Assembly: GCA_964019425.1 (NCBI GenBank)
Contig: OZ025837.1
Location: 367,001-431,000 of the forward strand
From: Flectonema sp. DT1601
Taxonomy: Eukaryota > Euglenozoa > Diplonemea > Diplonemida > Diplonemidae
Length of the DNA: 64,000 bases
Reading direction: 5' to 3'
A program made the translations under genes and the position numbers. The notes beneath the pieces were generated by a model that worked only from the letters and a program-made list of their open reading frames with translations, was not told the origin of the DNA and made no database searches. Of the stretch, positions 9,118 to 31,685 are shown in pieces (within the stretch, counting starts at the first letter, position 1; every line of letters begins with the position of its first letter).

Positions 9118-10059
9118 TCAAAGTGGATACTTTGCACAAATTTTCTTTTTCCGAGGCCTATTAGCAACTACAGGTCGAGTAACAATTGGAACCTTTAGAC
9201 CAAATCGTCTCGCTAACCAGATGTGTTCACCCGCTAAACAGGATGCCAGTGTCTCGTTATCAACCACATCCCACATCATTGCTTTTGAAATTCCCTCTTT
9301 CGATAATTCCTGGAACACCACATTGCGAGCTACTTCCTTCTGCTCATCATCTGTTAAGGATGCTTCAATACAGACCTCCTGCATAAGTGACAACAATTCA
9401 TCCTCACTTGACAGGGATGGCACTACTTCAGCTGAGAACAGTACACACACATCCTCAGCAGTAAGTCCCGTGCAGTCACCAAGATTGTTTCTTGAAAGAC
9501 AGCCGCCCTCTTCTAGTTTCTCGTGACAAACCTTGATGAGTAACTCGCTGTGTGTCTCCCGTGACAGTCCGAGTAGTTGACACACATCACTGTCTTCGAT
9601 TTGATGAGACACATGCTCAGAAATATCATTTAATAGTGATCTATACGTGATGTTGTGGTCCAGTATTTGTCTTCCATTTGTAACCATTTTCTTGATCAAA
9701 TCCAGAAGATCATTTCTAATTTGCTTCGCCTGCAAGTAGCAAACAAGTCGGTAAATGTTCTCAAGTAGTTTTACATCGAGAGGAACGCGTACTTGTGCTC
9801 CGTACATCAGTTGCACTACAAATAGGAAGTCTTCCTGGAATGCGAAATCAAGGTCAATAATTATATGTTTCGACACGGACTCCTCAAAATCACTCAAAGC
9901 GGAACTAAAATACTTCGAGGCAGCTTCCACCATCATTCGATGCAACGCATAGTCAGTTCCGTTAAAGGTTACCTTCAGATCTGATGTTTTCGTATCGTTG
10001 ATTGAATCTGATCGATCGATACTACAGACGACTACTTCCATCATTTGATTTGATGACAT
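9118..10059 (-). CDS. BTB/POZ protein BTB-3
   Basis: 313 aa. The BTB domain is at about residues 24-118 (SDLKVTFNGTDYALHR, then the variant QLMYGAQVRVPLDVK). The C-terminal region carries the alternative block NNLGDCTGLTAEDV, shared only with BTB-6. The frame ends VANRPRKKKICAKYPL. Just beyond the stop, in another frame at about 9010-9117, a decayed tail similar to that of BTB-2 (GYGARRFTG, DSDSS) is visible, so the present C-terminus arose by a frameshift. The start MSSNQMMEV aligns with the family. Its U module is displaced about 5.8 kb upstream by the PLE-A insertion, so expression may be altered. Confidence 0.85.
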   Translation of the reverse strand: MSSNQMMEVVVCSIDRSDSINDTKTSDLKVTFNGTDYALHRMMVEAASKYFSSALSDFEESVSKHIIIDLDFAFQEDFLFVVQLMYGAQVRVPLDVKLLENIYRLVCYLQAKQIRNDLLDLIKKMVTNGRQILDHNITYRSLLNDISEHVSHQIEDSDVCQLLGLSRETHSELLIKVCHEKLEEGGCLSRNNLGDCTGLTAEDVCVLFSAEVVPSLSSEDELLSLMQEVCIEASLTDDEQKEVARNVVFQELSKEGISKAMMWDVVDNETLASCLAGEHIWLARRFGLKVPIVTRPVVANRPRKKKICAKYPL

Positions 10060-10210
10060 TTCTCAAAATCCGTCAAAACTTTAGAAAAGTTAGTTAGTAT
10101 TAATGGTTATCAGTCAAAAGAAGGGAGAGGGTGGGGAAATTCAATCGAATGCAAAAGTTCGTAGGACAACAAACAAATAATGGTTGGTTTCGGGCTAAGA
10201 TTAAAGAATC
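10060..10210. other. Short spacer between BTB-3 and PLE-A
   Basis: It starts with the first about 25 bases of the U module (up to TTTAGAAAAG). It then holds a segment, GTAGGACAACAAACAA to GGTTTCGGGCTAAGA, that also occurs at 44075-44110 in an unrelated intergenic region. Confidence 0.55.
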
Positions 10211-10474
10211 TTTAGAAAAGTTAGTATCATTAATTTTAGAACAGAAAAGTGAGAATAAGAAAAGTAGAGATTAATAAAAGAAAAGTATTCATTTCTGCAG
10301 TTTCCTAACATCAAAAGGGTAATAGAATATGTAGTTTCAGGAGCCTTAACCTTATACTACTTGTCCCTTTTTAGGCCTTCATCAGTAAGTTCTAAGGGAC
10401 TTCATTCTATGTTGAAGTTGCTATCGTTCAAAGATAAAAATCCATCGGAGCTCGCCAGGATAGGGCTAGCAATG
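10211..10474 (-). repeat. PLE-A 3' terminal repeat, outer copy
   Basis: 264 bp starting TTTAGAAAAGTTAGTATC and ending GGGCTAGCAATG. It is directly followed by a second copy at 10475, and a third lies at 15271-15523. Coding-strand reading shows an inverted pair GTCCCTT/AAGGGAC around CTGATGA. Confidence 0.85.
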
Positions 10475-10736
10475 TTTAGAAAAGTTAGTATCATTAATTT
10501 TAGAACAGAAAAGTGAGAATAAGAAAAGTAGAGATCAATAAAAGAAAAGTATTCATTTCTGCAGTTTCCTAACATCAAAGGGTAATAGAATATGTAGTTT
10601 CAGGAGCCTTAATCTTATACTACTTGTCCCTCTTAGGCCTTCATCAGTAAGTTCTAAGGGACTTCATTCTATGTTGAAGTTGCTATCGTTCTAAGATAAA
10701 AATCCATCGGAGCTCGCCAGGATAGGGCTAGCAATG
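10475..10736 (-). repeat. PLE-A 3' terminal repeat, inner copy (3' UTR)
   Basis: 262 bp, almost identical to 10211-10474. It abuts the stop codon side of the RT frame and therefore serves as its 3' UTR. Confidence 0.85.
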
Positions 10737-10751
10737 TTTATTTGCTTTTGC

Positions 10752-12878
10752 TCAATTTGAATTTTTGACGTCTGGTCGTTTCACTATTACAGTCGAGTTA
10801 ATGGATGAGTCGTCATCCAATTTCCGTTTTATTTTATCTTCGCATACCATCAAAGGTCCTATATTCGCAGGTGTCATTGTAACATCCATATCAGTCTGAG
10901 CTTTTAATGGTATCATATGGAAACTATATTCTGTAGTTTGGTACATCTTGTCAAAATGATCGAAAGGGAGTCTTAAATCTTTTGTGCCTTTAAGAATGTC
11001 TCGGATGATCATGTACTCAAATGAGACTAGCGCAACAATAAAGTGAGTCATCTTTGTTTTCGCTTTATGCAGAATAAGTGCTGCGGCTGTATCAGGATAT
11101 TCGAAATCTGCTGGGTTAACGAAGTACTCGATTCTCCTGTTGAATTTAGTCATGCAAGCCATGTTAAGTACTTGTAGCGAGAACCAACCATCTGGTGATG
11201 GTTTATGCTCTGAGTTGTTCGGTTCTACTTTAAGAGATTCTTCATAAAATCGTTGTTGGTAGTTTTGCAGAAAACTGAAGTTAATTCTATCGATATATAA
11301 ATGATCTGCAATGAAGTTGAGCGCTGCCCATCCGCATTCTCCACCGAGAAGACCTTCTCCTGATGTTTGATGTAGGGATGGTGGAAATCGTTTATCCAAG
11401 GAATGGCTTGTAGAGCCTGTGTGGTTAATTGTATCCTTTTCGATGCTTAATGGGACTTTGTGACTAAACTTCTCAAAAGTAAGGTTGATACGTCGACGCA
11501 TTGCAGCTGCTGTATTACCATCATCAATGTGAGAGCTAATGAAGCGGAGGCATGCTGCTCTGATATTGTCAGATTTATAGCCCCGGTTGAGTAATCTATA
11601 AGTTACCGCTTCAAGTTCCTGTAAAAAATCTGCCTGGTTGTTGCAGATTTTTAAAGCTCGTAAGATCATGGTGGTAAAGATACCTGAACCCATTGATTCT
11701 TGAGCTGCGGAATGCTGATGGGTAAACCTTGTTGGCGTAATATGCCAACCCCTGGCTTTGTCGTTAACACTTAAACGAATCCATCGTTTATTTGTGTTAG
11801 TGATCTCTATTCGGATACGAATTCCTATATAAGAGACATCATCGATATTATTCGAAGTATCAGTGTAATCCATTGAGTATAGACTTGCTGGTGGAGGGTC
11901 GCAACTCCAGGTGAGGAAGTCGTCGATGTATCTACACGAGTGGTCATGTTGCCGAGCTAAGTCTAGATTTTTTGCTTCAATTAAAGAATCGATATATGCG
12001 GATTCAACTCTATAGCAGTAGAGATTTGCTATATCGCTACTGGCGTTGCCACCCATTGGAATGCCTATTGTTTGTCTCCAAATATAACCTCTTAATGCAA
12101 TAAAGGAGGAGTCAATACAGAATTCAAGTAATTTTTGACATTCTGCAAGCGCAAGAGAAGGGAATCGTGTAGGGTCACTCGATTCAAGACGTAAGATATT
12201 TTTGAAACTAAAGGCTTCTTGCAGTGCTTCACTTACTTTAGTTTTAATAGCGTTGTGTGGTAGGCGGGTGTACATTGTTGTAAAATCAGAAGTCTTAGGG
12301 GATAATTTTTTCAAAACCATCAAATTCTGTTTAATCGAACTAGAGACTTCATCATCTGATTCCACAATCCAGTATCGTTTGAACCGTGAATGCATATCTT
12401 TCTCTTTTAATATAGTCATCGCATTTTTAAGGATACTAGAGAGATGTTGGTGCGCATATGTTGTTGCTGTTGCAGGTGCAAGATTATGATCCTTATCGTA
12501 TTGTCGTTGTTCCGCTGTACCCGTGAAGGATGAGACACCAGTAATCCATCTCATCCCGATAGCTGATTTGTGTAATTTAATCATTCCATATAGGTGTGGG
12601 AGTCGATCAGAGTGGCGGGCATTGATTGAAATGTTCATGTTCTTGAGGTTGGCTAGTAGAGTTGGTTCGTCTGATGTGATGCGTTCATAAGAATCACTTT
12701 GTAGCTGCTCTCGAAGTAAAAGCAAATAATTTAATTTACACATGTAACCAATATCGTGCTGTCCTTTGTCAACTTTAAGAAATTCAAACTGAGATTGAAG
12801 ATTCTGAAGTTCAGTCCATGCTTTATTTGATAATGGTAAGAATTGTGTTTTTAAAGATCGATTTAAAGTTATCGCCAA
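10752..12878 (-). CDS. PLE-A reverse transcriptase with C-terminal Josephin-like protease domain
   Basis: 708 aa. PLE-type RT motifs in order: KVDKGQHDIG (about 35-44), LPHLYGMIKLHKS (93-105), motif A FTTMYTRLPH with Asp198, IGIPMGGNASSDIANLYCY (271-289) and motif C YIDD (317-320). After the thumb, residues about 500-655 (about 10913-11378) resemble a Josephin-type cysteine protease. They show GGECGWAALNFIAD with Cys515 (codon 11334-11336), DGWFSLQVLNMA, THFIVAL with His612, and an acidic residue in YMIIRD. The order and spacing match the Cys, then FSIQV, then HWF pattern of Josephin deubiquitinases. The same block is kept in PLE-B. RT assignment is secure; the protease assignment is inference from motif order. 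The frame overlaps the endonuclease frame by 56 nt. Confidence 0.85.
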   Translation of the reverse strand: MAITLNRSLKTQFLPLSNKAWTELQNLQSQFEFLKVDKGQHDIGYMCKLNYLLLLREQLQSDSYERITSDEPTLLANLKNMNISINARHSDRLPHLYGMIKLHKSAIGMRWITGVSSFTGTAEQRQYDKDHNLAPATATTYAHQHLSSILKNAMTILKEKDMHSRFKRYWIVESDDEVSSSIKQNLMVLKKLSPKTSDFTTMYTRLPHNAIKTKVSEALQEAFSFKNILRLESSDPTRFPSLALAECQKLLEFCIDSSFIALRGYIWRQTIGIPMGGNASSDIANLYCYRVESAYIDSLIEAKNLDLARQHDHSCRYIDDFLTWSCDPPPASLYSMDYTDTSNNIDDVSYIGIRIRIEITNTNKRWIRLSVNDKARGWHITPTRFTHQHSAAQESMGSGIFTTMILRALKICNNQADFLQELEAVTYRLLNRGYKSDNIRAACLRFISSHIDDGNTAAAMRRRINLTFEKFSHKVPLSIEKDTINHTGSTSHSLDKRFPPSLHQTSGEGLLGGECGWAALNFIADHLYIDRINFSFLQNYQQRFYEESLKVEPNNSEHKPSPDGWFSLQVLNMACMTKFNRRIEYFVNPADFEYPDTAAALILHKAKTKMTHFIVALVSFEYMIIRDILKGTKDLRLPFDHFDKMYQTTEYSFHMIPLKAQTDMDVTMTPANIGPLMVCEDKIKRKLDDDSSINSTVIVKRPDVKNSN

Positions 12879-14580
12879 CGTTCTTGTATGCGTGAGTTAT
12901 ATATTCAGTAATATCATTTTCAAGTGATTCTAATGCAGCTGATGGGTGCACTGGGACTCTAAATTTTTGACCTCGTGCGAAGAAGTCTCTTAGTTCTTCT
13001 GAGACTGGTAAATCAATAGCGAGTCCGCAAGAATGGCCGTTGTATTTTAAACTATTCAGTTCTTGAGTACTGCAATTGCAAGTAGATTGAGTCGGGGAGT
13101 CTGAATTGATGCTTGTTGAAGATGCATTTAAGACGATATCACCAACTGTTGTTCCAAGTTTGTTACAGATGCGTGTTCTTTCAAGAGTTCTTAGACAAGG
13201 ACAGGTTGCTTTAACTTCATCACATCTAAGAACAGCGCCAAGACCAATACGATCTAATGCTTTGTGGCTAAGATTCAGTTTCAACCAGTAAGTGTCCGAA
13301 TCTTTCTTCTTGTTTTCCCTTCTGAGATTGGCAGGATTTAGTCTTTGCATGAAACAATGCTCCAGCTGTTTTACGCAGGCAGTGTAATGTTCTTGAAAGA
13401 AGTTACTTCTAAGAAACTGCAAAACTTTTGTAGTAGAGCGTGTCTGCCAACGCGAGAAGTCGTATTGTAGAAGTTTTCTGTAGCAAGATGTTGTTGTCTT
13501 ACAGGTGGAAGGTTGGCGGTTGTTTCTTGTGCGATTTCTGTTCGTACTCAATTTTGGTGCATAATAGCCACGCGTATTTAATAGATTTTTAAAGGAATTA
13601 ATATAATACTGTTCACGTGGTGCGGCAGCTCTGTAGAAATCCGCTGCGTTGTTGTAATTGCAATCCGGAATCTTTTCTAGCGGCATGGCTAGGAGTGGGA
13701 ATCTCTGCTTTGCCAGGAACTCATAAAGCTTGTTCCCCTGGTAGCTGTTGTCCCTTGAGTGCTTTTTCGCAGCATACCAGTGGGAATGAACTCGCTTCAT
13801 TGTAGAATTATACGTTTGCCCTACGTATACTACTTTCTGGTCTGATCTTCTAAAGAGTGCATAAATGACTCCGGGGGTACGCATTCCGGGTTGTCTGCCT
13901 CTTATTTTGCGGCGTTGTAAAATTTTCCTTTGGAAAATATGGCGTTGACGGTTACAGTTACTCTCGTAAACTGACCAATCTATTCCGCCGTTTCGCTGCT
14001 TGTTTCTGTGCGCAGCTCCTTCATTATGCCAATTAAAATGGGCTTGGCTAGAATGCCAGTTTGCGCGGGAACGTCCATGTTGGCGTCGAATTCTATGTTG
14101 TGGGTGTTGTGTAAAACTGTGTCTCACTTCTCTTACTGATGACTTTCTCCATGGATTAGAATTGTAAGAGGGAGGCAATGCTCGTTCAATGATTAGACGC
14201 ATTTTACCAGCACCTACGGATCGAACTGCTGCACTGATTGCAGCAAATGGGAGCTCTTTCCTGTTTTTTTGCTCTATCATAATTTTTAAAGTGCTTCCTG
14301 ATTGCACTATCTTCCTTAACTGGAAGTCTCTTAAAGGTAGCACTCTAAATAGTGCTGTCCTGAGCGCTGTGTTAGGCTTAACAGGACGAGAGAAATTAAA
14401 ATGGGGGTTGGAATTATCGTGGTGTTGGCTATTGGAAGAAAAAAAAGAAAAATGACGAGGAACATGATTTTTTGTTTTGGAAAACCATCCAAAACGTGAG
14501 TTATCGACCCCTCCGGGTTTGTTTGCAAATTTAACCCCATATGCGTCGGGGTGTACTTGGTTAAAAGTACGGGTTTTCAT
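12823..14580 (-). CDS. PLE-A GIY-YIG endonuclease and Cys-rich/RT N-terminal frame
   Basis: 585 aa. The N-terminal third is basic and rich in Ser/Asn/His. The GIY-YIG nuclease occupies about 235-340: GVIYALF (237-243), YVGQT (252-256), Arg263, the catalytic-type Glu323 in PREQYYIN, and Asn335 in LNTRG. A Cys cluster (CPCLRTL, RICNKLG, CNCS, HSCGLAI) near 465-535 could bind zinc. The end, VSEELRDFFARGQKFRVP, matches the conserved segment just before the RT core in PLEs. The endonuclease therefore lies N-terminal to the RT, opposite to canonical Penelope. PLE-B keeps the same order. Confidence 0.85.
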   Translation of the reverse strand: MKTRTFNQVHPDAYGVKFANKPGGVDNSRFGWFSKTKNHVPRHFSFFSSNSQHHDNSNPHFNFSRPVKPNTALRTALFRVLPLRDFQLRKIVQSGSTLKIMIEQKNRKELPFAAISAAVRSVGAGKMRLIIERALPPSYNSNPWRKSSVREVRHSFTQHPQHRIRRQHGRSRANWHSSQAHFNWHNEGAAHRNKQRNGGIDWSVYESNCNRQRHIFQRKILQRRKIRGRQPGMRTPGVIYALFRRSDQKVVYVGQTYNSTMKRVHSHWYAAKKHSRDNSYQGNKLYEFLAKQRFPLLAMPLEKIPDCNYNNAADFYRAAAPREQYYINSFKNLLNTRGYYAPKLSTNRNRTRNNRQPSTCKTTTSCYRKLLQYDFSRWQTRSTTKVLQFLRSNFFQEHYTACVKQLEHCFMQRLNPANLRRENKKKDSDTYWLKLNLSHKALDRIGLGAVLRCDEVKATCPCLRTLERTRICNKLGTTVGDIVLNASSTSINSDSPTQSTCNCSTQELNSLKYNGHSCGLAIDLPVSEELRDFFARGQKFRVPVHPSAALESLENDITEYITHAYKNVGDNFKSIFKNTILTIIK

Positions 14581-15270
14581 TCAGAAATTATAATTGCCCA
14601 TGGGCGGCTTTTTCTCTTTAGGGAAGAGAACTAAAAGCTTTTGAAGAAACCGCGTGCTCACAGAAGTTTTTTGTTATGGCGGGTATCGACTTCTTCCCTC
14701 CGAGATGAGGGGGGTATCTTAACACGATCAGACACCGCTTGTCCGCTGGGTTCATGAGCTTTCGTGCCTTAAAAGCGTACTTAAAGTTATACGGTAACTA
14801 CGTTGGCGAGACGTATACAGCTTTAAGTGGAGAGCAGTTAAGGGTCCAGTTCAATTATTGCCCGTTGTCGAAGTTGAAGAGGAGAGTTTGAATAAGATTT
14901 CAGGAGAAAGGAGATTCGTTTGAGTAGGGAGCCTATTCAAAGGTACCATACCGTGGTACTTCACACAATTAATTTCCATTAGCTAAACCAAAATAAAAAA
15001 GGAAAAGTTAGAAAAAGGAAAAGGTGGGGAAATATATATAAACCAAAGTTAGATGTCTGGAAACATATTTGAAATTGCAGGATAATTGATAAACAATTAT
15101 GCTTCACATCGCCTTATGTAAGCTTAGAGAAGTCTTTAGAGAATAAGAATCTCTAATGCAGGGGATTCAGTTGCGAAGAACTTAAATACCCCGTCAGGTG
15201 CTGCTACCAAGAAGCGGCTTGGCAAAATCCACTGGTAGACCCTAAGCGAGTCCCACGTGGTAGTTACCTG
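14581..15270 (-). other. PLE-A 5' region
   Basis: No reading frame is supported. It ends at GACCCTAAGCGAGTCCCACG, a segment shared with the 5' end of PLE-B (about 30343-30372). Parts near 14600-14800, such as TCTTAACACGATCAGA, match 30000-30180 in PLE-B. This is a conserved untranslated leader. Confidence 0.65.
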
Positions 15271-15523
15271 AGTTAGTATCATTAATTTTAGAACAGAAAA
15301 GTGAGAATAAGAAAAGTAGAGATCAATAAAAGAAAAGTATTCATTTCTGCAGTTTCCTAACATCAAAGGGTAATAGAATATGTAGTTTCAGGCCTTAATC
15401 TTATACTACTTGTCCCTTTTTAGGCCTTCATCAGTAAGTTCTAAGGGACTTCATTCTATGTTGAAGTTGCTATCGTTCAAAGATAAAAATCCATCGGAGC
15501 TCGCCAGGATAGGGCTAGCAATG
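15271..15523 (-). repeat. PLE-A terminal repeat on 5' side (pseudo-LTR)
   Basis: The same sequence as 10475-10736. It is followed at 15524-15581 by the last codons of an RT frame like that of PLE-A. This is the tail of an upstream tandem copy, as expected for a PLE pseudo-LTR. Confidence 0.85.
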
Positions 15524-15581
15524 TTTATTTGCTTTTGCTCAATTTGAATTTTTGATGTCTGTTCGTTTCACTATTACAATG

Positions 15582-15835
15582 TTTAGAAAAGTTAGTTAGT
15601 TATCAAGTCCATCAGACCACCGAGTATCGGTTAGGTAGACACTCAAAGAGTACCGGGTGGCTCTTCTGAGGGTCCCCAATACTGCGGTAGTAGGAAGAAC
15701 CTAATCCCGGGGGGGATTATTTTGTTAGTATCAGCACAGGGCATACTAGATCAGGAGATCCAGAAACACTTCGCTTCCACCTTGTCCGGTATACTAGCAG
15801 GAAACCACGCAATTAAGTAAACAAATTAAAAAAAA
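15582..15835. other. Unassigned segment right of PLE-A
   Basis: GC-richer than the surroundings, with several short inverted pairs (for example CCGAGTATCGG and CCCGGGGGGG). It has no coding signal and no match elsewhere in the window. It may be 5' sequence of the truncated upstream PLE copy or filler DNA. The U module resumes at 15836. Confidence 0.35.
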
Positions 15836-16366
15836 GAATAAATAATATTAATTAACCGAGTTAATGAACTGCACCTGTTGTGGAATTAAATCAAATCATA
15901 ACAACACTTTTAAAGGTATCAAGAATAATAGTATTTAAGATAAGAAGGTGTAATTTATTAAAAGAGCGGATCAGAGTTAACAGCAGAGAAGATCATGGTT
16001 GCGATGGCCTTCACTTTCTCGCTTTTCTTTTTTGGATTAGAGCAAAACCTGTCTTGAGAAGGAAGGCGTGACAAAAAAAGCAAACCACACGAGACAAGAC
16101 AACAAAGACTGCTACAGAACATCGCCCGTGCAATGCGGGAACACCGTAAACGTACGTAACCAGCAGCGTACGGCGCCCGAGAAGGGAAAGGGAAAGGGAG
16201 GAAGGTGTGTGTGTTGTGTATCTGAAAAAAAAGAGGCGAGAGGAAACAATTTGGCAAAAGAAAACGGTCGGTCCCAGAGGCGCGGCGGGGCGGCTCTCTA
16301 GCTTCAGCAGCCAGCCGCAAAAAGGAACAATAATAAAGATAACAAAGGCCTCGGCAAGAAAACGAT
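15836..16366 (-). repeat. U module cut off from BTB-3 by PLE-A
   Basis: Full-length distal part, from AATAAATAATATTAATTAAC to GGCAAGAAAACGATC. Its BTB-proximal about 25 bases are at 10060-10086 on the other side of PLE-A. Confidence 0.8.
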
Positions 16367-16386
16367 CATCTTCGATGTCGTTATCT

Positions 16387-16545
16387 TCAAAGATGTAATT
16401 TTTGTGAATTACCTCCGGTTGGACTCTGACTATCTCTGAGTGATTTCATAATCTCATCAGTTTGTCGTATATTCCAACCTTTGATTGCAGTTGGTGGTGG
16501 CAGTACAGGTTCTGGTGTTGGAGTAGGAATCCTGTTCAGAGACTT
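16387..16545 (-). pseudogene. Proline-rich C-terminal gene fragment, copy 1
   Basis: A minus-strand frame of about 52 codons reads SLNRIPTPTPEPVLPPPTA, IKGWNIRQTDEIMKSLRD and SQSPTGG before a TGA at 16387-16389. It looks like the last exon of an unrelated gene captured with the cassette. Copies are at 18345-18503 and 20171-20329. No start and no upstream continuation are present here. Confidence 0.5.
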
Positions 16546-21869: not shown

Positions 21870-21925
21870 ATTGACCCGGGGACCACGCACTACAGGTTGA
21901 GCATCCCATGCCCTGCAGGTCGTTA
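21870..21925 (-). repeat. hAT-like terminal sequence, copy 1
   Basis: Minus strand reads CAGGGCATGGGATGCTCAAC, then CTGTAGTGCGTGGTCCCCGG. The CAG start and the TCAACCTG/CGTGG/CCCC layout resemble hAT transposon ends. It is related to 36262-36305. No partner inverted end was found nearby. Confidence 0.3.
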
Positions 21926-22049
21926 CAGCTTGAAAACATTAATGCATTAATTGGAAACCAATAAAAATCATCTGGGTGGGTAGTTACAGGGGTGAGAAAA
22001 AAAGAAAAGATAAATAACATGACAAGAATACGCTGGTTCCTAGCACACT

Positions 22050-23140
22050 ACAACTTTCTCTTTTCCTTTGTTTCAATTCTGATTCTTGCTCCCAAAAAGA
22101 CTACGTGGTCTTCACTAATCGTAGTGTCTTTGTAGTCCATCTTATAGATGCTTGGGGGTTGGAGGCTCATGCCCCCAACAAAGGAAGTCATCAATATAAC
22201 GCACCATAGTGCTATAAATCTTTGCTTTTGGAGGGGTTAACGTATCAATGTATTTACTCTCACACTGATAGCAATAAAGGTTTGCTATTAAAGGGGAAGC
22301 ATTACCACCCATCGGTATTCCTTTTGTTTGTCTATAACATTCTTTTACTTCCGATCGGTAGAATTAATGAATAATCAATACACATGTTGATATGTTCAAT
22401 GTGGTTTCGTTTCGGTAAAAAAAATATTCACTTTTTCCTTGTGAATGACGCGTTAGGTACTTCAGTTTTTTTGTAAATAAAAGCTTCTTTCACAGACTGC
22501 CGCACATTGTTCTTTAAGATAGTCATGTGTTAAGTTGCTGTACATTGTAGTAAAATCAAAAGTTTTTTGGTGGGGTAGAAGCGCTATAAATTGGGTATTT
22601 CCTTTTAATAGTTGTAATAACGTCGTCGACCGAATCAACAATGAAATATCTACGTACACCTGTACGAGCAAACTCTATACAATCTTTTATGTAAAGCACT
22701 TTGAGAATCGTTTTTAGAAAACTGACTACTTCCAACTGTACATCCGTCATTATATTTGACAAACCTCTAGCAGATAGAGCTGCTATTGTCTCTACTTTTG
22801 TATCTTTCAAACGGTTGTCTTTTTCCAAAACTTCATTTGATTCATTACTTTTTTTCTTTTTATCTTTTTCTGACGTATAAACTTCACACTTGGTGGACGT
22901 GCCAGCAATCCAACGTAGTCGGATGTCCCGGTAATTTGTGCAATTTCAAATTACCATAAAGGTAGGGCACAGACCCTGAAAATTTACTAAAATTTAATTT
23001 CTTTTTTGTCGCTTCCAAGTTTTCAAACATGTCCTTTTCTGCTAAAGAATAGGACGAAATTTCTTTTCTGAGTAATTGAAAATAAAGGGTTTTACACATT
23101 ACGCCAACATCATGGAGGGCTTTACCAATTGGTAAAGACA
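22050..23140 (-). mobile_element. PLE-C: degraded, divergent Penelope-like RT relic
   Basis: Scattered RT pieces appear in the right order on the minus strand: ALHDVGVMCK and PYLYGNLKLHK near 22.97-23.12 kb, FDFTTMYSNL near 22.54 kb, KGIPMGGNASPLIANLYCY near 22.28-22.34 kb, RYIDDFLCW near 22.17-22.20 kb, and FLGARIRIETK near 22.08 kb. It is much diverged from PLE-A and PLE-B, old, and broken in several places. No endonuclease or C-terminal protease part remains. Confidence 0.8.
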
Positions 23141-26366: not shown

Positions 26367-26424
26367 TTAGTAGCCATAATTATGACAATTGCATGAACAC
26401 TGCGGTGTATTATGACAGGTAGAA
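26367..26424 (-). pseudogene. BTB-8 tail separated from its gene by PLE-B
   Basis: Minus-strand codons read TCHNTPQCSCNCHNYGY and a TAA at 26367-26369, matching the Cys tails of BTB-9 and BTB-11. BTB-8 itself now ends in STCHNAPQCLSDLWKTY at the far side of PLE-B, so the insertion cut between the two halves. Confidence 0.75.
26396..26423. repeat. Probable PLE-B target-site duplication, left copy
   Basis: 28 bases (AACACTGCGGTG, T, ATTATGACAGGTAGA) recur at 30611-30638 with one difference. They flank PLE-B and lie within BTB tail coding sequence. Confidence 0.7.
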
Positions 26425-26520
26425 TTTGAGTTTATTATAAAAAAGTGCACTAAAATAAAATATAACAAAGAAAAATTATAAAAACACGATTGTTCTGCTG
26501 TTCCATAATACGTAGTTTCA
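26424..26520 (-). repeat. PLE-B terminal repeat, 3' side
   Basis: AGAATTTGAGTTTATTATAA through CTGCTGTTCCATAATACG. It matches 30382-30500 with a few differences and is distinct from the PLE-A end before the shared TAGTTTCAGGAG motif. Confidence 0.75.
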
Positions 26521-29500
26521 GGAGAACCATCCATCCGGGGATGGTTTTTGCTCGTTGCCGCCAGGTTCTACTTTTTGATGTTCTTCGTAGAATGTTTGTT
26601 GTAGTTCTTGCAAATAGCTGAAATTAATTCGGTCAAGATAAAGATGGTCTGCAACAAAATCCAGCGATGCCCATCCACACTCACCTCCAATTAGACCTTC
26701 CCCTGAAGATTGATGTGATTGTATTGGGAATCGTTTGTCTAAGGTGTGAAGTGTGAAACTTTTATGATTAATGGTGTCTTTTTCGTCGCTTACAGGGATA
26801 CCATGATTAAACTTTTCGGAAGTAATATTTAGTCGTCTTCGAATTGCAGCTGCAACATTGCCATCGTCAATATATAAGTTGATTGGGTGAATCTTGCTGG
26901 TATTATGTGCCATCCAGGCGCTTTGTCGTTAACGCTAAGACGTATCCATCTGTTGTTTGATCTGGTGGTTTCGATTCGGATTCTAATTCCGATGTATGAA
27001 ACATCATCAATACCATCAGAGATCTCGGTGTAGTTCATGGAGTATAATTCTGCTGGTGGTGGGTTGCAGTTCCATGTAAGGAAATCGTCTATGTACCGGC
27101 AAGAGTAGTCGTGTTTGCGTGCTAAATGTAACTCTCCTTTCGCTACAAGGTCATCCATAAATTTAGATTCGATTCTGTAACAGTAGAGATTAGCTATATC
27201 GCTACTTGCGTTGCCGCCCATGGGAATGCCAACTACTTGTCTCCATAGTTTTCCTCTAATTAATATTAGAGAATTATCCACACAAAAGCCTAGAAGCGCT
27301 CTACATTCTAACTGTGATAAAGCACGGTAGGTCGCAGGGTCATTAGATTCAAGTCGCATAATATTCTTGAATTCGAATACTTCTTTAATTGCTTCATTCA
27401 CTTTATCTTTGATCTCCTGGTGGGGTAGTCGTGTATACATCGTAGTGAAGTCGTGTGTTTTGGGAGATAGGCCTTTTAGTCGAGTTGTGTTTAATTTAAT
27501 ATCAGCAGCTATGTCTTTATCAGATTCGACTATCCAATAACGTTTGTATTTTGAATTCATATCTTTTTCTTTTAGTAAAGCCATCACATTTTTAAGAATA
27601 CTTGATAGATGCAGATGAGCGTGTGTTGTGGCTGTTGCGGGTGCCGTTTTATGCTCCTTGTCTAATTGGCGTTGCTTCTCCGTTCCTGTGAGTGAAGAGG
27701 CTCCCGAAATCCATCTCATCCCAATAGCTGACTTGTGCAATTTAATCATGCCGTAGAGATGAGGTAGTCTATCTGCATGCTTGTTTCCTAAGATTTTATT
27801 ATTCTCAGCTAAGAAGGCTAGAGTGACTTCCTCTGTTGCTTTCAATTGTTGATAGGCTGGACCTCCTAATTGCTTAGAAGGATTTACAAATGAAACCAAT
27901 ATCATGTTGTCCTTTGTCTACTTTTAAGAGAACCATCGAATTTTGTAGTGAAGAAAGTTCTTTGAGAGCTTTGCTTGACAGCGGGGAGTCAAGGAATGAA
28001 AGGTCTCGGCTCAGTTTGGTGTGGAGATGCTTAAGAATTACGTTTTTGAAGCGAAGTTTAATATCGTCAGTGGTGTTTCTGTAAGCTTTATCTACGTAAA
28101 CTGCTATGTCGTTTTCGAACCAGTCCATTGCTGCAGCGGGGTGCTTTGGAACTCTGAATTTCTGTCCTCGTGCGAAGAAATCTCGTAATTCGTCAGATAC
28201 GGGAAGATTTACTGCAAGACCGCAGGCATGGCCATCGAATTTAATACTTCCTGGTACGAGAGAACAACAGGGACATGGTGAACAGAGGGGTTCATCGCAT
28301 CCATTCCCAACAGAGGTGGCGTTTAATGCAATATCTCCTACAGTTGTACCCAGTTTGTGACAGATTCTAGTTCTGCTTAAGGTTTTTAAATTTGGACAGA
28401 CTGCCTTAACTTCGTCACTGTGTAGAATTGCTCCTAGGTTCAATCTATCTAAGGCCTTGTGGCTGACGTTTAGTTTAAGCCAGTAGCTGTTTGCTTCCTT
28501 TTTGTTTTTGAGACGACGTAGTGTTGCTGGATTCAATCTTTCCATAAAGCAGCTCTCGAGGTACTTTACACGGGCTGTGTATCGTTCTTGGTGGAAATTA
28601 GAACGAAGGAATTGAAGTACCTTTGTAGTTGTATTTGTCTGCCAACGAGTAAAGTCGTAGTTCGAAAACTCGTCTTCAGGCATAGCAAATAAAAAGTTGA
28701 GCTTCGATGGCAGCCATTTGTAGGAAGTCTCAACTTCAAAGGACACCATTTTCTAATGTAATCGTTGCGGTTGGTTTTGATTGTTGGAATAATTCAAAGT
28801 CCTCGCCATCATCGTTAACTTCACTGAAATAAAACCTGTTCTGCTCGTATACATTCTGTGACTTGAAAGATGGCATCTGTTGTTGGCGAACAGGGCGTGG
28901 CGGGCGGTTTTGGTGTTTTCTCGATCGTTGAGAGCTTAGCTTTGGTGAGTAATAACCTCTCACATTTAGAAGTTTTCCAAAACTATTAATATAATGCTGC
29001 TCTCGAGGGGCAGCAGCTCTGTAGAAGTCCGAAGCATTGTGGTAATGATTGCTTGGGATTTTCTCGAGTGGGATTGTTAGTGGAGGTAGTCTTTCCTGTG
29101 ACAGGTATTGCATCAGACGGTTTTCGTTCTGTCTTCTGTCACGTGACCACTTCTTTGCCTGGTACCAGTGTGACTGCGCTCGCTCCAGTGCTGAATTAGC
29201 TGTCTGGCCGACGTATATTACTTTGCCGTCGGAGCGTCTAAACAGTGCATAGATTACACCGCGAGTTCGAAGTCCGGGTTGTTTTCCGCGGATTTTACAA
29301 TGAGAGAGGTTTCTTCTTATAAATGACATCCTTTGCCTATTGCAGCTCTTCTCATATAATTTCCAGTCAATACCATCGAAGTTTCGCTTGTTTCGGTGTT
29401 GCACGTTTTCGCTTCGATGGTGGAAGTTGGACAGCGGCGAGTGTCTAAAAGGGCCGCCTCGTTGTTGTCCGTAATTTCTTCTGTGCCGGTGCTGTGATGG

Positions 29501-30381
29501 TTTGGCAAACAGATGATCTACTTTTTTCATCTGGCTCTTTTTCCATGGGTTCTGGTTGTAACTTTGCTGTTGTGCGCGCTGATTTGCTGTTCCCTCGATG
29601 ATGATACGAAGGTTCCCCGCACCCACGCTGCGAATTGCTGTATTAATTGCATTAAACGGTAGCTGTTTACCGCTTCGCTGTTCTACTAAAACACGTAGAG
29701 TCTTGCCGGTGTGCGTGATTTTCCGGAGAAGGAGGTCCCTTAAAGGCAGGACTTTAAAAAGCGCTGTCCGTAGCGCTTTGTTTGCATTGACTGGTGAATG
29801 GGAATGGGGGCGGGAAAAATGGGGTCCAGAAACGTCTTTTGATTGAAATCTTTGGTTATTGCTTTTTTGTTGTTGTTTTGGGAATCCCCAAAACTTTGAG
29901 TTTTCAACCACTCCAGGTTTTTTTTTGCAAAGTTATACCCCTTTGCATTGGGTCTCGTCCTACAATAGTTCGGGTGTCGCATGTGAAATATTTTTTTGCC
30001 TAAAGCGGCGGCTTTTTCTCTTTAAAGGAAGGGAACTAAAAGTATTCGAAGAAACCTCGTGCTTACAGAAGTTTTTTGTAGGCGGGTATCGACTTCTACC
30101 CTCAGAGAGAGGGGGGTTATCTTAACACGATCAGAAACCATTTATCCGCTAGGCTCATAGCCTTTCGTGCCCTAAAAGCATACCTAACTTCGAACGGTAA
30201 AAAACGTAGGCTAAACGTTGTTCGTTGCTAGGTGGAGGGTCCAGGTTAAATCTTGCCCGTTGACTAAGTAGAGAGGAGAGATTAATTTAGAAAGAAAAGG
30301 AAAATAGTTTTAAAGGAGTAAAATAGAGAGATGAGCATTGGTGACCCTAAGCGAGTCCCACATGGTAGTTACCAAAGTTAG

Positions 30382-30560
30382 AATTTGAGTTTATTATAAA
30401 AAAGTACACTAAAATAAAATATAATTAAAGAAAAACTATAAAAACACAATTGTTCTGCTGTTCCATAATACACTTGTGGAATACGTAGTTTCAGGAGCCT
30501 TAATCTTATACTACTTGTCCCTCTTAGGCCTTCATCAGTAAGTTCTAAGGGACTTCATTC
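30382..30560 (-). repeat. PLE-B terminal repeat, 5' side (pseudo-LTR)
   Basis: Repeats the 3' end of PLE-B and continues into the tail shared with PLE-A (CCTTCATCAGTAAGTTCTAA). This is again the tail of an upstream tandem copy. Confidence 0.75.
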
Positions 30561-30584
30561 CAGTTAATTAATAAATCGGATCCA

Positions 30585-31685
30585 TCAATAGGTCTTCCAA
30601 AGATCTGACAAACACTGCGGTGCATTATGACAGGTAGATAAGTATGTTTTAAATGTTGGATTATGATACACCAGCATATTATTACACGGAGGTATCTGTC
30701 TCCCACGAGGGTTAAAATGATCATGAGTCAACTGACGCAGCCCTATATTACACTGAGGTAACTGTCTCCCATAATCCACAGACACATTAAAAGGAACACC
30801 CACAGTACCAAAAGGAGCCCTTTGACCAAACTGTCTCGCTTCCCAAGTGTGTTCACCCGCTAAACAGGATGCCAGTTCTTCGTTATCAACCGCATCCCAC
30901 CTCATTGCTTTTGAAATTCCTTCCATCGATAATTTCTGGAACACCACATTGCGAGCTACTTCCTTCTGCTCATCATCTGTTAAGGATGCTTCAATACAGA
31001 CCTCCTGCATAAGTGACAACAATTCATCCTCACTTGACAGGGATGGCACTTCTTCAGCTGAGAACAGTACACACACATCCTCAGCAGTAAACTCTTTGAA
31101 GGAAGAAATATTGTTTCTTGAAAGACAGCCGCCCCACGCTAGAACTTCGTGACAAACATTGATGAGTAACTCGCTGTGTGTCTCCCGTGACAGTCTGAGT
31201 AGTCGACACACATCACTTTCTTCGATTTGATGAGACACATGCTCAGAAATATCATTTAATAGTGACCTACACGTGATATTGAATTCTAGTATTTGTCTTC
31301 CAGTTGTTATTATTTTCTTGATCAAATCCAGAAGAAGATTTCTAATTTCCGCTATCTGTAAGTAGCAAACAAGTCGGTAAATTCTCTGAAATTGGTTTAC
31401 ATCGAGAGCAACGTCTACTTTTGCTCCATACATCCAGCGGATTACAAATAGGAAGTCTTCCTGGGATGCGAAATCAAGGTCAATAATTATATGGTTCGAC
31501 ACGGACTCTTCAAAATCACTCAAAGCAGAACTAAAATATTTCGAGGCAGCTTCCACCATCACTCGATGCAACGCATAGTCAGTTCCGTTAAAGGTTACCT
31601 TCAGATCTGATGTTCTCGTATCGTTGATTGAATCTGACCGATCGGTACTACAGACGGCTACTTCAGTCGTTTGATTTGATGACAT
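30585..31685 (-). CDS. BTB/POZ protein BTB-8, C-terminus altered by PLE-B
   Basis: 366 aa. The BTB domain is at about 24-118 (SDLKVTFNGTDYALHR, RWMYGAKVDVALDVNQFQR), followed by the helical region with GRQILEFNITCRS and HVSHQIEESDV. The extended tail has two Arg-Gln-(Leu/Ile)-Pro motifs with Cys (GRQLPQCN, GRQIPPCNN). The last residues (about PQCLSDLWKTY) are encoded across the PLE-B junction, replacing the family ending CSCNCHNYGY that now lies 4.2 kb away. The start MSSNQTTEV abuts a short U module. It is probably still translated with a modified tail. Confidence 0.85.
   Translation of the reverse strand: MSSNQTTEVAVCSTDRSDSINDTRTSDLKVTFNGTDYALHRVMVEAASKYFSSALSDFEESVSNHIIIDLDFASQEDFLFVIRWMYGAKVDVALDVNQFQRIYRLVCYLQIAEIRNLLLDLIKKIITTGRQILEFNITCRSLLNDISEHVSHQIEESDVCRLLRLSRETHSELLINVCHEVLAWGGCLSRNNISSFKEFTAEDVCVLFSAEEVPSLSSEDELLSLMQEVCIEASLTDDEQKEVARNVVFQKLSMEGISKAMRWDAVDNEELASCLAGEHTWEARQFGQRAPFGTVGVPFNVSVDYGRQLPQCNIGLRQLTHDHFNPRGRQIPPCNNMLVYHNPTFKTYLSTCHNAPQCLSDLWKTY
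30611..30638. repeat. Probable PLE-B target-site duplication, right copy
   Basis: Partner of 26396-26423. About 50 bp of extra sequence (30561-30610) separates it from the recognisable element end. Confidence 0.65.

Follow-up and report, generated by a model that had tools for sequence, protein, structure and literature searches.

Penelope-like elements with a predicted Josephin-like papain-fold domain behind the reverse transcriptase in the diplonemid Flectonema sp. DT1601

The window analyzed here, a 64,000-nucleotide stretch of the genome of Flectonema sp. DT1601 (C58:367001-431000), contains a Penelope-like element (PLE) on its minus strand, designated PLE-A. The copy is distributed over two open reading frames (ORFs; Table 1). 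In the first, GVIYAL...VYVGQT represents the core of a GIY-YIG endonuclease (EN). The second carries the reverse transcriptase (RT) motifs LPHLYGMIKLHK, GIPMGG and YIDDF, followed by GGECGWAALN, DGWFSLQVL and THFIVAL. PLE-type RTs are marked by a YG..K.HK motif and by their relation to TERT; here the motif was read by eye only, as LPHLYGMIKLHK and LPYLYGNPKMHK, and a Pfam scan of the window RT returned no RT match. An earlier note on this DNA had proposed a layout of GIY-YIG, RT motifs and the three C-terminal motifs in this order, which was borne out. Its numbers for the predicted catalytic Cys and His, 515 and 612, need correction, as stop-to-stop numbering gives Cys521 and His618, six higher.

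Relative to the intact L003, the window copy has two deletions, of ~46 nt at 12837 and ~176 nt at 13465, and the shorter deletion coincides with the point at which the two frames part. Given these deletions and the uninterrupted frames of close copies, the two window frames are one broken ORF. In close copies of family A, GIY-YIG lies ahead of the RT within a single ORF. The window element is a recently broken Penelope-like retrotransposon with an N-terminal GIY-YIG endonuclease. Direct repeats of ~260-310 bp flank it on both sides, and, as read by eye, another, partial unit further upstream ends inside the upstream repeat with its final codons and stop. An upstream repeat with a foreign ORF end is as expected for tandem PLE copies, and the locus shows both the pseudo-long terminal repeats (pseudo-LTRs) and the tandem partial copies that characterize N-terminal-endonuclease PLEs. 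Rfam searches gave no match in window positions 9500-16500 (E<=0.5) or in four family loci (gathering threshold). Separately, a CTGATGA...GAAAC stretch inside the pseudo-LTR, noticed by eye, may be a hammerhead.

Table 1. Coordinates of PLE-A and its parts in the window, and of RT half-frames near contig ends
Feature	Position	Strand	Detail
First open frame: N-terminal region, GIY-YIG endonuclease, CxC-containing linker	12823..14580	-	585 aa
GIY-YIG core, residues 237-286 of first frame	13723..13872	-	Pfam GIY-YIG E=0.053, below curated cut-off
Second open frame: reverse transcriptase, then Josephin-like domain	10752..12896	-	714 aa + stop
Reverse transcriptase region, approximate limits	11600..12800	-	YIDDF at 11916-11930
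Josephin-like papain-fold domain, modelled stretch	10884..11429	-	182 residues; about 21-179 match Josephins
Predicted catalytic Cys codon (model 32, frame 521)	11334..11336	-	invariant 9/9; first residue of helix 32-43
Predicted catalytic His codon (model 129, frame 618)	11043..11045	-	invariant 9/9; just before strand 130-135
Predicted third triad residue, Asp codon (model 144, frame 633)	10998..11000	-	invariant 9/9; ends strand 139-144
Glu25 codon, seven before Cys	11355..11357	-	invariant 9/9
Upstream pseudo-LTR unit, 5' side of element	15271..15578	-	97.7% identical to 10483-10791
Downstream pseudo-LTR unit 1, overlaps ORF end	10483..10791	-	97.7% to 15271-15578
Downstream pseudo-LTR unit 2, tandem	10219..10478	-	98.1% to 15271-15527, ~97% to unit 1
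RT half-frames	C78:13381-14187, C19:13575-14381	-	near left ends
RT half-frames	C78:605668-606438, C77:615918-616718	+	near right ends

A search of the genome (89.5 Mb, 92 contigs) with the second frame gave at least 68 matches. Besides the window copy, ten copies of family A matched query residues 5-714 at 96-97% protein identity, with frames that run without inner stops over the same stretch and reach 1350 aa (three at 1350). Any two of these ten share 98.5-100% DNA identity over 2130 nt, which argues for recent amplification; PLE-A is a young family rather than a single-copy oddity. Subfamily B is 64-65% identical over the frame, and its five longest copies, with frames of up to 1380 aa, show a DNA identity of 98.9-99.95%. 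Searching with the B domain returned at least 154 matches, including a set at about 30-38% identity within frames of up to 2273 aa. Family C (L062, 2273 aa) encodes GIY-YIG, RT, the Josephin-like domain and a long tail with a Cys/His-rich patch, and family D (L063) has a 1952-aa frame that starts behind the endonuclease and holds RT, Josephin-like domain and a long Cys/His-patch tail. Pfam RVT_1 matched the RTs of families C (2.3e-7) and D (1.1e-7), and Pfam GIY-YIG was found below its cut-off in subfamily B (E=0.0066) and family C (E=0.092). By BLASTP, the intact A copy (L003) aligns with L062 over EN and RT at E=2e-86 and separately over the domain at 2e-19. Two further families bear the domain: in E (L064), place and a shared 1788-aa frame tie it to the RT, and G (L067) occupies a single place, at which the domain was read. 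The window domain is 62% identical to that of B and 25-29% identical to those of C, D, E and G. Since the three-motif pattern recurs in PLE families whose domains share only 23-28% identity with that of the window, it reflects more than chance. As an additional observation, the window harbors a decayed second PLE of subfamily B at 26416-30595 (minus strand), 93-99% identical to L019 in pieces and broken inside the Josephin-like domain.

In its residues, the domain follows the Josephin order. A nine-sequence alignment representing families A, B, C, D, E and G has 22 invariant columns, which include Cys32, His129 and Asp144; in family G the His and the Asp lie one residue further apart. In ataxin-3, Gln9 is the oxyanion residue, and Cys14, His119 and Asn134 are catalytic. 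The order of Cys, His and Asp and the spacing of 15 residues after the His match ataxin-3, with which the window family also has in common an Asn six residues after the Cys and a (D/S)G.FS.QV stretch. Josephins more broadly (ataxin-3, JOSD1/2 and the bacterial PcJOS, BpJOS and PaJOS) resemble the PLE domain in predicted fold, in a Cys that starts the core helix, in a His just before a strand, in an acidic or amide residue at His+15, in the Asn at Cys+6 and in the stretch that reads DGWFSLQV in the window family. The PLE domain differs from them in being fused behind a retroelement RT, in lacking a match to the Pfam Josephin family (PF02099), in its low structural-alignment identity and in the replacement of the oxyanion Gln.

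The triad was also counted across 73 fetched loci, with L031 and the broken copy L073 left out and overlapping loci merged by place. A script located the ECGW motif at 53 distinct places, one of them an antisense chance match. The frame stays open for 160 residues from the Cys at 44 of the 53, and 41 of these 44 have Cys, His and an Asp 15 or 16 residues after the His. Three of the open places lack the pattern: L011 carries Arg instead of the His, L046 shows no His motif at the expected position, and in L029 a short deletion has shifted the Asp. Two closed places bear the triad, the E copy L066 and the single family G place L067, whose frames stop 143 and 139 residues after the Cys, respectively. 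The remaining places are truncated or frame-broken.

Structural prediction pointed in the same direction. With family members aligned, AlphaFold2 modeled the window domain at a predicted local distance difference test score (pLDDT) of 82.7 and a predicted template modeling score (pTM) of 0.83; a single-sequence prediction was unusable (pLDDT 38). Solved Josephins took Foldseek ranks 1, 2, 3 and 6, human and bacterial entries sharing the first three and only rank 1 having E<0.001, and human Josephins took VIA ranks 1-4 at 11-14% alignment identity; the absence of a papain-like family from these fold listings does not exclude that family. In a viral structure library, an Orpheovirus Josephin-domain protein ranked third. 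A comparison of profile hidden Markov models (HMMs) with three Josephins placed Cys on Cys and DGWFSLQV on SGFFSIQV, with P=0.022 and 3 of 300 column shuffles reaching the score, a marginal signal toward Josephin. The predicted fold supports the Josephin-like reading of the earlier note, as does the order of the residues; the HMM-HMM alignment with Josephins supports it marginally, and scans of families A, B, C and D gave no PF02099 match. A PF02099 search of the genome gave one sub-threshold match elsewhere (E=2.7). PDB sequence searches with the window domain and the family C domain yielded nothing meaningful, and scans of viral contigs and genome contigs gave pattern matches only, with no relative by tblastn. 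Overall, the predicted model supports a papain-fold cysteine protease of Josephin type with a Cys-His-Asp triad, and from the fold and the catalytic residues we infer a putative deubiquitinase function.

Two further PLE families carry an OTU-like protease domain at the same C-terminal position. Searching with the family C RT identified family F1 at seven places, with 38-39% RT identity over query residues 17-507, besides shorter matches. Six of the seven places have 1436-aa frames; the one that was read encodes GIY-YIG, CxC, RT and then a GNCFF...HY domain. When cut out, this piece matched Pfam OTU at E=2.3e-4 and 22.1 bits (cut-off 23.3; positions 2-128) and otubain at 1.3e-3; the whole 446-aa piece gave no Pfam OTU row at E<=1. 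Family F3, at 37% RT identity and two places, includes a frame (L079) that holds RT and an OTU-like domain; its score of 32 bits exceeds the cut-off, with the match covering positions 4-83 of the 128 in the profile. Among the seven families and subfamilies in which a C-terminal domain is tied to the RT, five are Josephin-like (A, B, C, D and E) and two are OTU-like (F1 and F3). Rooting the three clades (A/B, C/D/E and F1/F3), and with it the order in which OTU and Josephin arrived, would require a PLE from outside this set.

Several side observations concern these OTU-carrying families and the tails. An F3 fragment lies in the window at 21881-23140, 96-98% identical to L079 in pieces, with the OTU stretch outside the matched pieces. 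Across the genome, Pfam OTU gave 71 matches at E<=10, 69 of them over the cut-off. Many of the matches sit in repeated frames of 2257-5423 aa, so that OTU proteases may also be encoded by further mobile elements here. By eye, the Cys/His-rich C-terminal tails of L062, L063, L076 and L079 resemble one another, whether the PLE carries a Josephin-like or an OTU-like domain. The tail of family C contains CKYCNKSWKSFIDHINKC, and that of F1 is C1-like (PDB 6tly, E=2.1e-4).

N-terminal-endonuclease PLEs of the Naiad/Chlamys type, described by Craig et al. in 2021, reportedly place GIY-YIG before the RT and have a CxC linker, pseudo-LTRs and tandem partial copies, all of which recur here. In apparent contrast to them, the present elements have a C-terminal Josephin-like or OTU-like domain, and families C and D have long Cys/His-patch tails. 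NeSL long interspersed nuclear elements are among the transposons with OTU or Ulp1 cysteine proteases. In the passages available from each source, Helentrons encode an OTU protease (PMC6431247) and Polintons a cysteine protease (PMC5718144). These three groups share with the present PLEs a cysteine protease in a mobile element; element class and protease family differ. Bdelloid Athena/Terminon PLEs, which are endonuclease-deficient, have extra ORFs for a GDSL esterase and a DEDDy exonuclease and thus resemble the present families in recruiting accessory enzymes; the passages of PMC5408684 that describe them contain no Josephin. Passages of PMC11167929 and PMC12477816 cite Craig et al. 2021 as the source for N-terminal-endonuclease PLEs. 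Literature covered by title, start of abstract and text passages, with Craig et al. 2021 outside this coverage, contained no PLE with a Josephin or OTU domain. The PLE domain would add a highly diverged branch to the Josephin fold, and these families suggest that PLE ORFs can grow large by capturing C-terminal modules.

Within the papain-like superfamily, Josephin and OTU form separate families, and each is known chiefly for its deubiquitinases. The occurrence of both in one slot is our main argument that a ubiquitin-editing activity is the selected trait, and it suggests that PLEs gain from editing ubiquitin. We therefore favor, with somewhat better than even confidence, a PLE equipped with a Josephin-type cysteine protease that acts on ubiquitin or a ubiquitin-like protein, probably in cis. 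A PLE protein would have to persist in the cell through RNA binding, target nicking and copying. The domain might strip ubiquitin from the element's own RT/endonuclease ribonucleoprotein (RNP), or from a host factor encountered at the target; this would spare the PLE protein from the proteasome or from ubiquitin-dependent silencing for the time that integration takes. Alternatively, its target could be a ubiquitin mark placed by host control. The case for protection in cis would draw on the fold, the triad and the double recruitment. Tentatively, and with the odds slightly against it, deubiquitination may be a standing requirement of the PLE life cycle in this lineage, the C-terminal slot having been filled at least twice and deubiquitinase modules being exchanged much as integrases or endonucleases are in other elements. 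Against double recruitment, it is formally possible that a single ancient capture diverged, given that Josephin and OTU share the papain-like superfamily. To our knowledge, ubiquitin control of retrotransposons has mostly been described from the host side. A retroelement that brings along a deubiquitinase-type module, present in multiple families and in two forms within one genome, would make RNP protection versus removal of a target mark directly testable.

Several findings weigh against a Josephin-type protease active on ubiquitin, and there are rival explanations. The main rival, which we regard as unlikely, is a self-processing protease that cuts the PLE polyprotein into endonuclease, RT and tail and never touches ubiquitin. 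Papain-like folds do act as viral polyprotein proteases, and in families C and D, whose frames run to 2273 and 1952 aa, the domain is internal and followed by a long tail that cleavage would release. However, only ~45 residues follow the modeled domain in A and B, leaving little to release; the best-matching folds are deubiquitinases, and two families without a Josephin-like domain carry an OTU-like one. Another explanation is a general papain-like peptidase, nearer to the C39 bacteriocin-processing peptidases or another clan member, with the Josephin ranking owed to a shared core. The C39 entry PCAT1 stood at Foldseek ranks 4-5, ahead of Josephin-2, and the C39 VIA score of 9.8, compared with 12.0 for Josephin, exceeded that of the ataxin-3 NMR entry 2aga (9.5). 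Further points against the main reading are that the other four of the five AlphaFold2 models were lower (mean pLDDT 54.9 to 75.5), PF02099 had no match at E<=10 in the domains of families A, B, C and D, and that a PDB sequence search with a seven-row profile found nothing at E<=10. Nevertheless, we judge the general-peptidase reading rather improbable, because Josephins, not C39 peptidases, hold the leading Foldseek and VIA ranks, and because ataxin-3 and the window family agree in the distance of 15 residues after the His, in the Asn at Cys+6 and in the (D/S)G.FS.QV stretch.

The chemistry and the selection on the domain bear on a third possibility, that it was captured from a host gene and is now dead, a functionless passenger. 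The oxyanion Gln, expected five residues before the Cys, is not conserved (Leu27 in the window copy). Leaving aside the GE that precedes the Cys, the closest polar residue on this side without variation is Glu25, at -7. This loss could indicate altered chemistry; Glu25 is a possible stand-in for the Josephin Gln, and passages of PMC10318531 note papain-like families without a canonical oxyanion residue. Many copies are broken, and the otherwise open L011 has lost its His; together with the missing Gln, these points would suit a remnant. Within families, the ratio of nonsynonymous (dN) to synonymous (dS) divergence is not low (B vs B' 0.52, window vs A 0.43), and C vs C2 reaches 1.9 on very few changes; in such near-identical pairs the ratios are uninformative or relaxed. 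Between C and D, the domain changed faster than the RT (dN 0.39 vs 0.22). However, domain dN between A and B (0.29) is near that of RT (0.26) and EN (0.28) with dS at or near saturation, and C-D, C-E and D-E give domain dN of 0.34-0.39 with dS saturated. By these rates the domain appears conserved, yet less so than the RT in the C/D branch. As the triad does not vary among families that share 25-29% identity with the window, and an open frame plus triad occurs at 41 of the 53 places, a functionless passenger seems very improbable.

Other repeats were observed in the window and at the contig ends. A gene-sized unit is repeated ~10 times over window positions 459-39078, with PLE-A between two copies; two minus-strand copies were scanned and encode BTB/POZ proteins (Pfam BTB E=2.1e-7 and 8.2e-9). 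In the subtelomeric RT family F2, most frames are ~250-350 aa long and cover only the first half of the RT query, and one 4-kb locus showed no protease by eye or Pfam. PLE-like RT half-frames of ~300 aa, 47-48% identical to the family C RT, lie ~13-22 kb from contig ends at four places (Table 1), and the half-frame at L077 adjoins one ORF with weak AAA/NACHT matches and another with a CxxC and His pattern seen by eye. TTAGGG- and TTTAGGG-type repeats numbered 0 in the genome search. The contig ends L080-L083 (both of C78, left of C19, right of C77) consist of arrays of the 8-mer TTTGCGGG, which accounts for 58,639 + 57,242 exact 24-mers in the genome, and the G-rich strand of these arrays runs inward from the left end, opposite to the usual telomere polarity.

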